A stretch of DNA of 64,000 bases from Ornithinimicrobium pratense (GTDB lineage Bacteria; Actinomycetota; Actinomycetes; Actinomycetales; Dermatophilaceae), in the NCBI RefSeq assembly GCF_008843165.1, contig NZ_CP044427.1, positions 372,001 to 436,000 of the forward strand. The letters run 5' to 3'. This document shows positions 5,692 through 63,014 of this stretch, one piece after another. A model generated the notes under the pieces. That model searched no databases and had not been told where the DNA came from. It saw nothing but the letters and a program-made list of their open reading frames with translations. Numbering within the stretch: position 1 is the first letter of the stretch; every line of letters begins with the position of its first letter. The position numbers were made by a program, and so were the translations under genes.

Positions 5692-7269
5692 ATGAGGTAT
5701 GTGGTCACCTCCGCCGTCGTCGGCACCCTCCTGTTCGGGGCGGTCCAGGGGGGCGGGGCGGTCGCGTCGACCGACGGGACGACCGCCGAGCCGGTCGTGT
5801 CCACGCAGGCGCCAGCCGGGCCAGAGACGACCACCGCGGCCGACGTGCGTCCGCGACCCAACGCCTTCGTTGACCCGCTTGGGGATGTGCGTGGCGGCCC
5901 GGTGCCTGAGCGTGGTCCCCTGGCCCAGCAGATCTCCGAAGAGCTGGACAGCCGCTGGCTGGGCCCCAGCAACCGCCGCAGCATCGCGATCCGCGACGCG
6001 CTGACCGGCGAGAGCCTCGCCGACCGGCACTCCGGGCGACCGGTGACACCGGCCTCCACGACCAAGCTGCTCTCGGCCGCGGCCATCGTCACCGCGCTGG
6101 ACCCGGCTACGACCTTCACCACGCGCGTCGTCGCGGGGGAGCGGCCGGGGGACGTGGTCATCGTGGCCGGCGGGGACATGCTGCTCGCCGACGGCGAGGG
6201 TGACCCGGAGGCAGTAGCCGGGCACGCCGGCATCGGCGACCTCGCGGCACAGACCGCCGCGGCCCTGCGGGCCGGCGGGAGTGGTGTCGGGGACGTCGAC
6301 GAGGACGGTGACGAGGGGGACGGTGCCGAGGAGGACGGCGGGGAGGCGACCACCGGCCCCGGGACCGACGCAGTCGGCCCGGTCACCGTGAGTCTGGACC
6401 TCTCGCACGTGTCCGGACCGCACGCCCTGGAGACCTGGAGCGAGCACTGGGTCGCCGAGGGCTGGACCGGGCGGATCGTGCAGCTGGGGCGCGCCAGTGA
6501 CAGGGCCCTGCCGTTCAACCCTTCCCCGCGCCAGCCGGAGCAGGAGGTGGCCCGAGTTTTCCGCGAGGCGCTGGCCGACCAGGGCGTCGAGGTGGTCGGG
6601 GCCGACGCGGGTGACGAGGACGGCGGTGAGGACGGCGGGGAGGACGCCCGCGCGGAGGTGGTGACCGCGCCTGCGGGGGCCGTGGAGCTGGCCGCCGTCG
6701 AGTCCGCGGCCCTGCGAGACGTGCTGGCACTGGCGTCCGCGACGAGCGACAACGCGATGTTCGAGCAGCTGGCCCGCCAGGCGGCCGTCGCCGCCGGCCA
6801 CGGCCCCGACCAGGAGTCGGTCACCGCCTGGATCCGGGACACGATGACCGAGGACCTGGGCCTGGACCTGACCGGGATGCGGATCGCGGACGCGAGCGGG
6901 CTCTCCGACGGCACCCTGCTGTCGATGGAGGTGGTAGCCGAGGTGCTGGTGGCCGCTGCGGACGGCTCCCACCCGCACCTGCAGGAGGTGCTGGCCGCCG
7001 GCGGGCTGCCCATCGCCGGCTACACCGGCACTCTGGGCACCGGGATGCGCTTCCACCTGCCCGCCCACGCTCCGGCTGTCGGCAACGCCCGGGCCAAGAC
7101 CGGGACCCTGCCGGGCGTGACCGCGCTCGCCGGCACCGTGGTCACCGCGGAGGGCAGGCTGCTGGCGTTCGCCGTCGCGGCCGACGACATCGAGACCGGC
7201 TCGGCCGCGGTGGAGGCTGCATCCGTCCTCGATCAGATCGTCGCCCAGCTGGCCCGCTGCGGCTGCTGA
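5692..7269 (+). CDS. dacB: D-alanyl-D-alanine carboxypeptidase/endopeptidase, PBP4 class
   Basis: Class C penicillin-binding protein of 525 residues that trims or cleaves peptidoglycan stem peptides outside the membrane. The ATG at 5692 follows GGAGG and begins a signal peptide (MRYVVTSAVVGTLLFGAVQ). All three active-site motifs are visible: S122-T-T-K125, S352-D-N354 and K469-T-G. Two Asp/Glu/Gly-rich inserts, at about bases 6289-6355 and 6601-6657, interrupt the region between the first two motifs. They look like low-complexity expansions of GACGGCG-type units. Divergent from ppa. Confidence 0.9.
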   Translation: MRYVVTSAVVGTLLFGAVQGGGAVASTDGTTAEPVVSTQAPAGPETTTAADVRPRPNAFVDPLGDVRGGPVPERGPLAQQISEELDSRWLGPSNRRSIAIRDALTGESLADRHSGRPVTPASTTKLLSAAAIVTALDPATTFTTRVVAGERPGDVVIVAGGDMLLADGEGDPEAVAGHAGIGDLAAQTAAALRAGGSGVGDVDEDGDEGDGAEEDGGEATTGPGTDAVGPVTVSLDLSHVSGPHALETWSEHWVAEGWTGRIVQLGRASDRALPFNPSPRQPEQEVARVFREALADQGVEVVGADAGDEDGGEDGGEDARAEVVTAPAGAVELAAVESAALRDVLALASATSDNAMFEQLARQAAVAAGHGPDQESVTAWIRDTMTEDLGLDLTGMRIADASGLSDGTLLSMEVVAEVLVAAADGSHPHLQEVLAAGGLPIAGYTGTLGTGMRFHLPAHAPAVGNARAKTGTLPGVTALAGTVVTAEGRLLAFAVAADDIETGSAAVEAASVLDQIVAQLARCGC

Positions 7270-7340: not shown

Positions 7341-8474
7341 ATGACCGAGCCCACGGTGACCTCCGCCCATCCCGAGCCCACGGACGTGTCCGGCAGCGCG
7401 CTGGTCGACTGGGACTTCGCCGCAGCCGCCGCCAGCCGGCTGGCCCCGCCCGGGCCCAAGGCCGACCGTCGGGAGATCACCCAGCTCGTCGACGAGCTGC
7501 GGCAGGCCGGAGAGCGCGCGGTGGACCTGGTGGCCCGGACCGCCCGCCTGGAGACCCCGCCCGGGGCACCACCCGCGCTCATCGTGGACCGGGCCGGGTG
7601 GATCCGGACCAATGCGGCGTCGATGGGGGCCATGCTCGCCCCGGTCCTGGACGAGGTGGTGGCCCGGAAGCGGGCGGCTGACCGGGAGAGGGCCGAACGA
7701 GCTGGTCGCGCGCTGCCTGACCTGGGCGCCGCCTCGCAGGCGATCTCGGGCAAGGTCACCGGCACCGAGGTAGCGGGGATCCTGTCCTGGGTCTCGACCA
7801 AGGTGCTAGGGCAGTACGACCTCGCGCCGCAGGGGACCCCGAGGTTGCTGTTCGTCGCACCCAACATCCTGGCGGCGGAGCGCGAGCTCAAGGTGGATCC
7901 CTCGGACTTCCGGCTCTGGGTGGCGCTGCACGAGGAGACCCACCGGGTGCAGTTCACCGCGGTGCCGTGGCTGCGTGAGCACCTGATCGCCGAGGCGCGC
8001 TCGATCGGCAGCCAGGTGCTGCCCGAGCCGGAGAACATGGGCCAGCGGATGGTCGAGATCGTCAGCAAGCTGCCCGGCGTGCTGCGGGGGGAGGAGGACA
8101 TCACCCAGATCGTCGCCACTCCGGAGCAGCGGGCCCGGCTGGCCGAGGTCACCGCGGTGATGTCGCTGCTGGAGGGCCACGCCGACGTGATCATGGACGA
8201 GGTGGGGCCCAGCGTGATCCCCAGCGTGAAGGAGATCCGCCGCAAGTTCACCCAGCGGCGCAAGGGCGCCGGCAACGTGGACAAGTTGCTGCGCCGCCTG
8301 CTGGGGATGGACGCCAAGATGCGGCAGTACCACGACGGCGCCATCTTCGTCCGGGCCGTGATCGACGCCGTAGGGATGGAGGGTTTTAATCAGGTCTGGA
8401 GCTCGGCCGAGGCTCTCCCCCGGGCGGCGGAGATCCCCGACCCGCAGGCCTGGGTGGCGCGAGTCCACGGCTGA
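7341..8474 (+). CDS. Zinc-dependent metalloprotease-like protein, DUF2342 (F420-biosynthesis-associated family)
   Basis: A 377-residue member of a family known in annotations as 'coenzyme F420 biosynthesis associated uncharacterised protein' or DUF2342. A zincin HExxH signature, HEETH, lies near residue 197 within WVALHEETHRVQF, and a glutamate-rich helix MSLLEGHADVIMDEV further on could supply the third ligand. No signal peptide is present, so it should act in the cytoplasm. The true substrate and any link to F420 are unproven. The gene order dacB - DUF2342 - tilS - hpt - ftsH is conserved in actinobacteria. Confidence 0.82.
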   Translation: MTEPTVTSAHPEPTDVSGSALVDWDFAAAAASRLAPPGPKADRREITQLVDELRQAGERAVDLVARTARLETPPGAPPALIVDRAGWIRTNAASMGAMLAPVLDEVVARKRAADRERAERAGRALPDLGAASQAISGKVTGTEVAGILSWVSTKVLGQYDLAPQGTPRLLFVAPNILAAERELKVDPSDFRLWVALHEETHRVQFTAVPWLREHLIAEARSIGSQVLPEPENMGQRMVEIVSKLPGVLRGEEDITQIVATPEQRARLAEVTAVMSLLEGHADVIMDEVGPSVIPSVKEIRRKFTQRRKGAGNVDKLLRRLLGMDAKMRQYHDGAIFVRAVIDAVGMEGFNQVWSSAEALPRAAEIPDPQAWVARVHG

Positions 8475-8480
8475 CCTTCT

Positions 8481-8545
8481 CCCGACAGAACACGCCAGAA
8501 GGCCCGAGAGAACACGCGCGAGGCTCGACAGAACACGTCGACGAC
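8481..8545 (-). repeat. 22-bp-period repeat array 1, three units (intergenic, upstream of tilS)
   Basis: Three copies of a 14-base core at 8481-8494, 8503-8516 and 8524-8537. Read on the minus strand they are CGTGTTCTGTCGGG, CGTGTTCTCTCGGG and CGTGTTCTGTCGAG. Cores start 22 and 21 bases apart, and the 7-8 bases between them are not conserved. The array fills nearly the whole interval between the DUF2342 stop and the tilS promoter. Confidence 0.9.
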
Positions 8546-8549
8546 GTCC

Positions 8550-8555
8550 TAGGCT
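8550..8555 (+). promoter_or_regulatory. Candidate -10 element, leaderless start of tilS
   Basis: TAGGCT lies six bases before the ATG at 8562 and directly downstream of repeat array 1, which would therefore cover the -35 and upstream region. Confidence 0.5.
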
Positions 8556-8561
8556 CGGGCC

Positions 8562-9677
8562 ATGCCCGGGCCACCACCTGCCATCGCAGCCTGCCGCGTG
8601 GCGGTACGGCGATGGCTGACCGAGGAGAGGTTCCCGGAGGGTGCCCTGGTGCTCGTGGGCTGCTCCGGCGGGGCAGACTCCTTGGCCCTGCTCGCCGCTA
8701 CCGCCTTCGTAGCACCTCGGGCAGGGCTGCGGGTCGGCACCGTGATCGTCGACCACGGGCTGCAGCCGGGGTCGTCGCGCGTCGCCGACTCGGTGGCGGT
8801 GACCGCGTACAGCCTGCTCACCGAGCAAGGACCCGTGGAGGTGGTGGGCGCGCAGGTCGAGCAGACCGGCGCCGGACCCGAGGCGGACGCGCGGCGGGCG
8901 AGGTATGCAGCGTTCGGCCGCACCGCAGACCGGCTCGGCGCCATGGCACTGCTGCTGGGGCACACCCTCGACGACCAGGCCGAGCAGGTGCTGCTGGGAC
9001 TGGCTCGCGGTTCGGGAGCGCGCTCGCTGGCCGGCATGCCGCGGTCGCGTGTCCTGTCGGACCATTCGGCGTGTTCGGTGGGGACGTGTGACGTGTTCGG
9101 TGAGGACTTCGCACGTGTTCTGTCGGGACGTATGGCGTGTCCCGTCGGAGGTGGTAGCGAGAGTGAGGGCGGGGGCAGGGTGGTGCTGGGGCGGCCGCTG
9201 CTGGGGGTGAGCAGGGCGCAGACGCAGGACGCGTGCGCGGAGCTGGGGCTGGTGCCATGGCAGGACCCGCACAACGAGGACCCGCGGTTCGCCCGCGTCC
9301 GGGTCCGGCGGGCGCTGGCTGACCTGGAGAAGGACCTCGGGCCCGGCCTCGGGCGCAACCTGGCCCGCACCGCGGCGCTGCTGCGCGACGACGCCGATGC
9401 GCTGGACGAGGCGTGTGAGGCGGCATACCGGGAGCTGGGCGACCCGCCCTGGACGGTGGGCCGGCTGGCCTCGCTGCCGCGCGCCCTGCGCACCCGGCTG
9501 TGGCGTCGGCTCGCGCTCGCCGCCGGCAGTCCCGGCACCGACCTGACCAGTGAGCACCTGCTTGCGGTCGATGGCCTGGTCACCGCCTGGCGGGGCCAGG
9601 GGCCGCTGTCCCTGCCGGGCGGGGTCCGGGCCTGGCGCCAGGGGGACCGGGTTCGGCTGGAGCGGCGACGTAGTTGA
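8562..9677 (+). CDS. tilS: tRNA(Ile)-lysidine synthase with a repeat-encoded insert
   Basis: TilS attaches lysine to C34 of the tRNA-Ile with a CAU anticodon, using ATP, so that it reads AUA. The protein has 371 residues. The PP-loop SGGADS is at about residues 33-38, and family signatures IVDHGLQPGS, RYAAFGRTADRLG and LLGHTLDDQAEQVLL follow. Between GMPRSR and GRPLLGVSRAQTQ, where homologues usually have only a few residues, there is an extra stretch at about residues 163-198. It is encoded by five exact 22-bp-period repeats (9048-9157). Because 22 is not a multiple of three, successive units are read in different frames, giving RVLSDHS, ACSVGT, DVFGEDF and then RVLSGRM again. The frame stays open, so the enzyme is probably functional. 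hpt follows. Confidence 0.92.
   Translation: MPGPPPAIAACRVAVRRWLTEERFPEGALVLVGCSGGADSLALLAATAFVAPRAGLRVGTVIVDHGLQPGSSRVADSVAVTAYSLLTEQGPVEVVGAQVEQTGAGPEADARRARYAAFGRTADRLGAMALLLGHTLDDQAEQVLLGLARGSGARSLAGMPRSRVLSDHSACSVGTCDVFGEDFARVLSGRMACPVGGGSESEGGGRVVLGRPLLGVSRAQTQDACAELGLVPWQDPHNEDPRFARVRVRRALADLEKDLGPGLGRNLARTAALLRDDADALDEACEAAYRELGDPPWTVGRLASLPRALRTRLWRRLALAAGSPGTDLTSEHLLAVDGLVTAWRGQGPLSLPGGVRAWRQGDRVRLERRRS
9048..9157 (+). repeat. 22-bp-period repeat array 2, five units (inside tilS, inverted relative to array 1)
   Basis: Cores of 14 bases start at 9048, 9070, 9092, 9114 and 9136, a period of exactly 22 each time: CGTGTCCTGTCGGA, CGTGTTCGGTGGGG, CGTGTTCGGTGAGG, CGTGTTCTGTCGGG and CGTGTCCCGTCGGA. 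The eight bases after each core vary. The fourth core is identical to one in array 1, about 600 bases away and in the opposite orientation. Confidence 0.95.
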
Positions 9678-62357: not shown

Positions 62358-63014
62358 CTACTCGGTGGTCAGGTAGGCGTCGAGGTCGACGTACCACTCG
62401 TCGGTGATGCGCTTGAGGGTGATCGTCGAGTCGCCCATGGCCTCGGCGAACAGCGGAGAGTAGTTCTCGCGTCCGACGACCGCGGTGTCGCCCTGGACGT
62501 CAGCGCCCCGGATCTGCATGGACTCCAGCACCGCGATGCCGTCCTCGCCCAGGCCCTGCGCCTCCACGGTCGCCTCCATGGTGGCGGGCAGCTGGGTCTG
62601 GCACAGCTCCAGGTCTGAGGGGACGGCGGTCATCGGCCGCTCGGGGTCGCTGAAGGAGAGGAGCAGGTCGCAGGCTGTGGGGTCGGCGGTGACCAGCGCC
62701 ATGAGGAACTCCTTGGCGCGCTCAGCAGCCGCCTGGCCCTCCTCACCGCCCATGACCGCGTCGTCGCCGGGTGCTTGCGTGGCGGGAGCCTCGTCGGTGA
62801 CGGCGGCGTTGTCCACGGGCGCGGTGGCGGCGGCGTCGTCCACGGGGGCCGTGGTGGCCTCCTGGTCCTCGGGCGGGGGTGTGTGGGTGGTCGGGGCCAC
62901 CCCATCGGTGGTGGCGGTGCCCCCAGCGGTCGCGTCGTCGGCTGCGGTGTCGCCGTCGCAGGCGGTCAGGAGTAGCGCCGCGCTGGCGACCACGGCGGTC
63001 AGAGTGCGTCGCAT
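62358..63014 (-). CDS. Putative lipoprotein
   Basis: A 218-residue predicted lipoprotein. The ATG at 63014 follows GGGGAGAG and gives MRRTLTAVVASAALLLTAC with lipidated Cys19. Residues of about 20-90 form a Thr/Ala/Pro/Asp-rich linker. The remaining domain (RAKEFLMALVTADPTACDLLLSFSD ... ITDEWYVDLDAYL) resembles small DUF4878-like or low-molecular-weight ligand-binding domains, but I cannot name a family with confidence. It sits within the menaquinone genes without an evident link. Confidence 0.72.
   Translation of the reverse strand: MRRTLTAVVASAALLLTACDGDTAADDATAGGTATTDGVAPTTHTPPPEDQEATTAPVDDAAATAPVDNAAVTDEAPATQAPGDDAVMGGEEGQAAAERAKEFLMALVTADPTACDLLLSFSDPERPMTAVPSDLELCQTQLPATMEATVEAQGLGEDGIAVLESMQIRGADVQGDTAVVGRENYSPLFAEAMGDSTITLKRITDEWYVDLDAYLTTE

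Follow-up and report, generated by a model that had tools for sequence, protein, structure and literature searches.

Interspersed repeats at the ends of bacterial genes are already known. Plasmid-origin iterons are protein-bound direct repeats spaced by close to two helical turns, the TTF-I and Reb1 sites of eukaryotic rDNA are polar tandem protein sites located downstream of genes, and bacterial minisatellites (mycobacterial interspersed repetitive units/variable-number tandem repeats, MIRU/VNTR, and the major polymorphic tandem repeat, MPTR) consist of tandem units in variable copy number, MPTR also having a constant core and short spacers. According to excerpts of the two source papers, repetitive extragenic palindromic sequences (REPs) facilitate Rho-dependent termination and the bacterial interspersed mosaic element BIME-2 binds gyrase (PMC2817692), and the uptake sequences of Neisseriaceae occur 2000-6000 times per genome, their inverted pairs having been suggested as terminators (PMC7371117). 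Here we describe direct arrays of a short core, repeated every 22 or 32 bp, two of which (period 22) lie upstream of and inside the tilS gene in a 64,000-nt stretch of the Ornithinimicrobium pratense chromosome (NZ_CP044427.1, positions 372,001 to 436,000; hereafter the window). The arrays form a dispersed, phase-locked and dialect-bearing family that is mostly polar at gene ends, its dispersal, core conservation, phase, stop-codon position and orientation all being observed in the genomes analyzed. They resemble a gene-end signal of a type not described so far, with a putative function. A literature search by titles and abstract openings, with subscription journals and preprints outside its scope, recovered no description of such arrays, and we know of no gene-end repeats made of direct phase-locked arrays with a constant period and a core that changes between clades.

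Core arrays around tilS

The two arrays of the locus and the features that frame them are the following.
7341..8474, + strand: Zincin_2 metallopeptidase gene (domain match), stop codon at 8472-8474
8481..8537, - strand: upstream array of three cores, of CGTGTTCTGTCGGG type on the - strand and reading CCCGACAGAACACG on the + strand
8550..8555, + strand: TAGGCT, a -10-like box (TANNNT) that precedes the tilS ATG by 6 nt and is conserved in the sister species
8562..9677, + strand: tilS, with ATP_bind_3 and TilS substrate-binding domains (domain match)
9039..9191, + strand: expanded TilS loop holding the internal array
9048..9149, + strand: tilS-internal array of five cores at exact 22-base steps

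The original prediction had placed five + strand cores inside tilS, starting at 9048, 9070, 9092, 9114 and 9136, and three reverse-strand cores upstream, at 8481, 8503 and 8524. All eight are present, each 22 bases apart in the former array and with steps of 22 and 21 in the latter, and the two arrays do have one core in common, that at 9114 (CGTGTTCTGTCGGG) being the exact reverse complement of 8481-8494. The 8-base spacers are mostly variable as described, but calling them not conserved was too strong, given that some A-rich and CC-rich positions are partly kept across arrays of this dialect. Both arrays were also called by Tandem Repeats Finder (8481-8537 and 9070-9140), and a degenerate two-core pattern (at most 3 mismatches) gave 5 matches in the window, whereas 100 dinucleotide-preserving shuffles gave a mean and a maximum of 0. 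Other tandem repeats of the window (6291-6338 and 62795-62875; periods 12, 15 and 27, multiples of three) are coding-like and unrelated to the arrays.

The first core of the upstream array starts 6 nt past the metallopeptidase stop codon, and the internal array is turned so that its stop-side orientation is antisense to tilS. The earlier remark that the upstream array lies in the tilS promoter region is reasonable, as the array ends just before the TAGGCT box, which by its resemblance to a -10 element may be a leaderless tilS promoter. Between the metallopeptidase stop and the tilS start there are only 3-26 nt in 26 relatives, versus 87 nt in the own genome (G000, 3.54 Mb) and 126 nt in the sister species (G029, the closest relative found), 28 of the 30 loci being readable. 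In both species the enlarged gap is filled by the array and the conserved box. Since these separate genes that abut in 26 relatives, the array coincides with a probable new transcription-unit boundary.

Dispersal, core and period

Arrays of this kind are spread over the chromosome. At up to 3 mismatches, the tandem core pattern has 36 matches in G000 and 126 in G029, with none for the mirrored control in either genome, so that a local minisatellite, one of the options first raised, is refuted, and the alternative of an interspersed family is borne out by matches across the own genome, the sister species and the genus. The proposed search of the genome and its relatives for repeated cores found further copies genus-wide, and unit number differs between the sister species. 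Arrays in G000 are also fewer and more degenerate than in G029, its metallopeptidase being 94 % identical to that of G000 (81 % in the next relative).

The tilS-type dialect occurs in 2 of 186 family genomes, G000 and G029. Within the genus (Ornithinimicrobium/Serinicoccus, 31 genomes, relatives identified through malQ) two related families were found, one with period 22 and core SACCGGACRCG and one with period 32 and core SACCGAGCGCM, both counted with looser patterns allowing at most 1 mismatch. The former is present in 10 of the 31 genomes (G003 117, G004 170, G008 52, G020 129, G027 19, G028 87 and G029 20 matches, and 1-3 each in G000, G016 and G030); outside the genus, two genomes have one match each, and mirrored controls total 2 over the 186 genomes. 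The period-32 core is present in 17 of the 31 (G019 118, G023 115, G007 71, G017 59, G004 55, G020 41, G027 38, G028 25, G002 18, G003 15, G016 12, and at most five in each of G005, G008, G012, G013, G025 and G030), with one match in each of four other family genomes and a mirrored-control total of 1. Both periods coexist in several species. This restriction to the genus applies to the 186 genomes of one family and to the cores searched, and members with neither core may lack arrays or use other cores. In a viral collection the three patterns gave 0, 0 and 1 stretches by exact matching, on which a phage or virus origin was rejected, and a bacterial genome collection, from which near relatives of the window were possibly left out, gave 0 stretches for the exact tilS-type pattern.

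At the malQ loci of relatives, Tandem Repeats Finder showed arrays downstream of the stop codon that differ in sequence and have a period of 22, 32 or 41. Repeats of period 21-23 or 31-33 were seen at malQ in 9 of 15 genus loci versus 3 of 65 loci from other genera, as counted by eye with coding status unchecked. Several further arrangements were noted in these and other loci. Inverted repeats, seen by eye, replace the arrays at the malQ end of L083 and L077, and that of O. sediminis (L082 7107-7300) combines period-32 repeats, whose core is of another (GCGAGGG) type, with inverted copies at its far side. The malQ and pepN arrays of G029 (L007 3120-4480) flank a 1.1-kb gene, and in the own genome (L024 2900-2947) malQ, one array and pepN are adjacent, as though this gene had been gained by insertion, or lost, between arrays. 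G003 (L155 1068-2598) has long non-coding arrays with larger units (periods 54, 62 and 63) that belong to neither family, and arrays of 51-52-bp units in Serinicoccus relatives (L075 3802-3953, L076 3786-3924) and in G001 (C1:1048915-1049089) are a possible further family.

Core and period were analyzed in three sets of 41, 20 and 20 stretches, taken from the matches listed by their core pattern and irrespective of where they lie. Set A holds 57 arrays of the tilS-type dialect from both sister species (11 of its 21 G000 loci have an ortholog among its 20 G029 loci), set B 29 arrays of period 22 and set C 32 arrays of period 32. The first nine bases of each of the cores ACAGRACACG, ACCGGACRCG and ACCGAGCGCM conform to ACMGRRCRC. 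Steps between cores, grouped with one base of slack per step so that larger departures are invisible there, were 22 in 154, 21 in 8 and 23 in 2 cases in set A, 22 in 119, 21 in 2 and 44 in 2 in set B, and 32 in 108 and 33 in 1 in set C. In unselected stretches and with no spacing window, the nearest downstream same-strand core within 130 bp was exactly 22 away in 23 of 27 cases in G003 (400 kb), 15 of 19 in G029 (100 kb) and 5 of 6 in the window. For the period-32 core the distance was 32 in 5 of 6 cases in G003, and 100 kb of G019 held one pair, 128 apart. Loss of the 22-base phase in other copies had been named as what would speak against a binding array; the phase is kept, and that model therefore survives.

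Between arrays, most core positions are 75-100 % identical, with one wobble position at about 48 % in the tilS-type dialect, whereas most filler positions are 27-50 % identical, near background. Cores are common to different arrays. Within an array the filler of adjacent units is more similar, markedly so in sets B and C but barely in the own genome. Arrays seem to expand through duplication in place, given that neighboring units resemble each other more than those of separate arrays do. Between the sister species, intergenic DNA shows 0.23 indels per substitution (54 per 233, in 20 gaps without arrays), so that filler as diverged as in the own genome would be expected to have changed in length, and its constant length needs an explanation: either length matters or it was set by the way units arise. 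Periods of 22 and 32 correspond to about two or three helical turns and differ by about one, and may reflect duplex DNA.

Position and orientation relative to genes

A same-strand stop codon lies at most 60 nt upstream of 79 of the 108 non-coding arrays (37/49 in set A, 24/28 in set B and 18/31 in set C), and 50 of the 108 start within 10 nt of the stop or contain it. Where a gene end is found on one side only, the orientation is 34:1, 12:1 and 13:3 in the three sets, 59:5 in total (binomial p 2e-9 for A, with sister orthologs both counted, 0.003 for B and 0.02 for C). Often the stop has a constant place within the first unit. It takes up core positions 3-5 in 11 set A arrays (offset -5; TGA in those read), and its end lies six bases past the core in 9 set B arrays (offset -17; TAG in those read), such set B genes gaining the C-terminus APDAR (L212, L213, L215, L220 and L228). 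At L234 (1096-1275) a - strand cobalamin riboswitch stands beside a period-32 array that precedes a + strand gene, an exception to the stop-codon rule.

Arrays also occur as inverted pairs, which at first sight resemble one compound mobile element with inverted ends. A gene end precedes both arms in 8 of 16 pairs, one arm only in 7 and neither arm in 1 (L018), which makes such an element less likely, if still conceivable. The arms of such pairs could pair with each other if both were transcribed. An intrinsic hairpin terminator formed by single arrays was rejected on folding, which covered arrays one at a time: sense arrays of three or more units (first 96 nt, 20 shuffles per array) are only slightly better folded than their shuffles, with mean z of -0.64, -0.87 and -0.51 in sets of 41, 24 and 29 arrays and no stable hairpin. 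At the Rfam gathering score, 8 array loci gave no match and 17 further loci gave only five tRNAs and one cobalamin riboswitch. When arrays behind tRNA genes were sought as a test of termination, 3 of 22 loci held five tRNAs, none directly upstream of an array.

The array of the tilS-type dialect is followed by a -10-like box in 11 of 17 same-strand junctions (p 0.004 versus ordinary junctions), or in 8 of 14 when orthologous duplicates are left out (p 0.03). Control junctions have the box in 48 of 171 ordinary and 8 of 153 operonic cases, the 171 being pooled from several genomes and not cleared of arrays. Taking the three sets together, the box follows the array in 14 of 31 same-strand junctions (p 1e-7 versus operonic). 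The location of arrays at transcription-unit boundaries, drawn from the tilS locus and the tilS-type dialect, is suggestive only.

Possible roles and comparison with known systems

We tentatively favor, at less than even confidence, phased polar arrays of binding sites that mark transcript 3' ends. Each unit has a core of about 10 bp (ACMGRRCRC) with filler of nearly fixed length that sets cores 22 or 32 bp apart; a sequence-specific factor would coat the array and mark the 3' boundary of the transcription unit; and the array would stop or insulate transcription arriving from the preceding gene, perhaps together with Rho once ribosomes are gone. The different core dialects between clades imply that the specificity of such a factor drifts. 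The stronger proposal, a dedicated Ornithinimicrobium 3'-end system in which a fast-evolving protein ends or insulates transcription at polar, helically phased arrays behind stop codons, with clade dialects in one or both phases (22 and 32), is a doubtful one that we put forward as conjecture.

Several observations weigh against this reading. The stop-codon rule is weaker in the period-32 family, as given by the set C counts above. Among gaps of 45-400 nt in unselected parts of G003, G008, G029 and the window, arrays occur in 4/53 convergent, 7/165 same-strand and 4/87 divergent cases; they thus extend beyond gene-end gaps and show no strong preference for convergent ones. Nor do arrays go with a clear shortage of hairpins, the trend in convergent gaps being weak (median z 0.14 in 33 gaps with arrays versus -0.46 in 60 without). 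The excess of boxes over ordinary junctions is not significant for all 31 junctions (p 0.09), the other two families having the box in 3 of 14, no more than ordinary junctions. No binding protein was found, no whole-genome comparison of gene content having been made. Also, sense arrays lie inside the genes for an MFS transporter (in both sister species), a HelY-like DSHCT helicase and IspD. IspD is usually essential, and therefore either translation suppresses the effect of the array or the array does not stop polymerase; such arrays argue against an unconditional transcription stop or simple roadblock. Gene calls came from a simple codon-usage caller, not a standard annotator, so that starts are approximate, and L026 and perhaps other cases inside genes are doubtful. 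Finally, the TilS loop measures 51 aa in G000 and 69 aa in G029 versus 13-20 aa in 20 of the 24 genus loci parsed (6 of 30 unparsed), and the same loop holds period-32-type units in G008 (36 aa; steps 33 and 32) and two cores 32 apart in G030 (35 aa), in the same orientation in both. This repeated use of one loop by different families is striking and unexplained.

The use of that loop by period-22 units in G000 and G029 and by period-32-type units in G008 and G030 would be natural if arrays expanded by themselves, through a core-specific nicking or recombining enzyme with a fixed stagger of 22 or 32 nt, fill-in and end joining of which would duplicate exactly that length. Arrays would then be a mutational or selfish by-product kept where harmless, behind stop codons and in protein loops. 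Filler that is copied locally within arrays and mostly unrelated between them, a period that is exact despite arbitrary filler, and the insertions in protein loops all fit this unlikely but serious alternative. By itself, however, it does not account for the 59:5 bias in orientation behind stop codons, and a search that covered Y1 transposases only found no enzyme of this kind. In the own genome, moreover, adjacent units are hardly more alike and yet the step is mostly 22, suggesting that length is maintained after birth. A family without any function, spread by recombination and retained in spacer DNA, would account for arrays in coding loops and divergent gaps, for the unit numbers that differ between sister species and for the fewer, more degenerate arrays of G000. 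Orientation, core conservation and phase taken together nevertheless make a purely neutral family fail as an explanation: the bias of 59:5, conservation confined to the core, a phase that outlasts divergence of the filler, and dialects with an unchanged period leave it quite improbable.

Less probable than self-expansion, if better placed than neutrality, is an array acting at the RNA level, in which a U-poor sense transcript behind the stop codon would be a platform for Rho or another RNA-binding protein, active only without ribosomes. The position directly behind stop codons in sense, a sense RNA that is little structured and poor in U (3.5, 7.8 and 11.9 % in the three sets), and the tolerance of sense arrays inside translated genes are as expected from such a platform. 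Flexible single-stranded RNA, however, would not readily account for a step held close to 22 or 32 across arbitrary filler, C exceeds G only slightly, and the conserved core is not a YC-rich string of the kind found at rut sites. A DNA uptake sequence with dialects, as in Neisseriaceae, is very improbable, even though dialects here are clade-specific and inverted pairs stand at some convergent genes. Isolated cores are in no clear excess over mirrored cores (137 versus 161 in 400 kb of G003, 22 versus 13 in 100 kb of G029 and 12 versus 11 in the window; mirrored controls were made for these three and none for G019), and uptake-sequence behavior is thus not supported. The period-32 core in G003 is in excess (135 versus a mirror of 89), yet the density is far below the 2000-6000 copies per genome given in the excerpt cited above (PMC7371117).

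Should the arrays end transcription, they would constitute a factor-dependent terminator in bacteria whose DNA code can be read, and would keep a natural record of how a binding protein and its sites change in step. Should they be by-products of an enzyme, they would point to an unknown one that makes exact 22- and 32-bp tandem duplications.

Among described systems, the arrays resemble REP/BIME elements, as portrayed in the excerpted source, in having around a hundred dispersed, often extragenic copies and lineage-specific subfamilies (PMC2817692). They differ in being direct arrays whose units lack an imperfect palindrome and recur at a fixed step (22 or 32). The Y1_Tnp (PF01797) transposase of REP-associated tyrosine transposases (RAYTs) was found in 0 of 4 genomes (G000, G029, G003 and G019), the control search being positive in 5 of 14 named genomes, and membership in the REP/BIME class fails on both the palindrome (folding z) and this transposase. 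With DNA uptake sequences they share a short core, clade dialects and inverted pairs, but they are phased and far fewer, and isolated cores lack a clear excess. They are distinguished from minisatellites by their orientation behind stop codons and by two phase classes, 22 and 32. As in iterons, direct repeats follow each other at a step near whole helical turns, with neighbor distances of mostly 22 or 32, although here the arrays are scattered over the chromosome behind genes and not gathered at an origin. As in a polar terminator, they lie at gene 3' ends in one orientation (79/108; 59:5), more weakly for period 32 (18/31). They differ from TTF-I and Reb1 sites in being bacterial, in occupying many loci, in having species dialects and in a role in termination that is putative.
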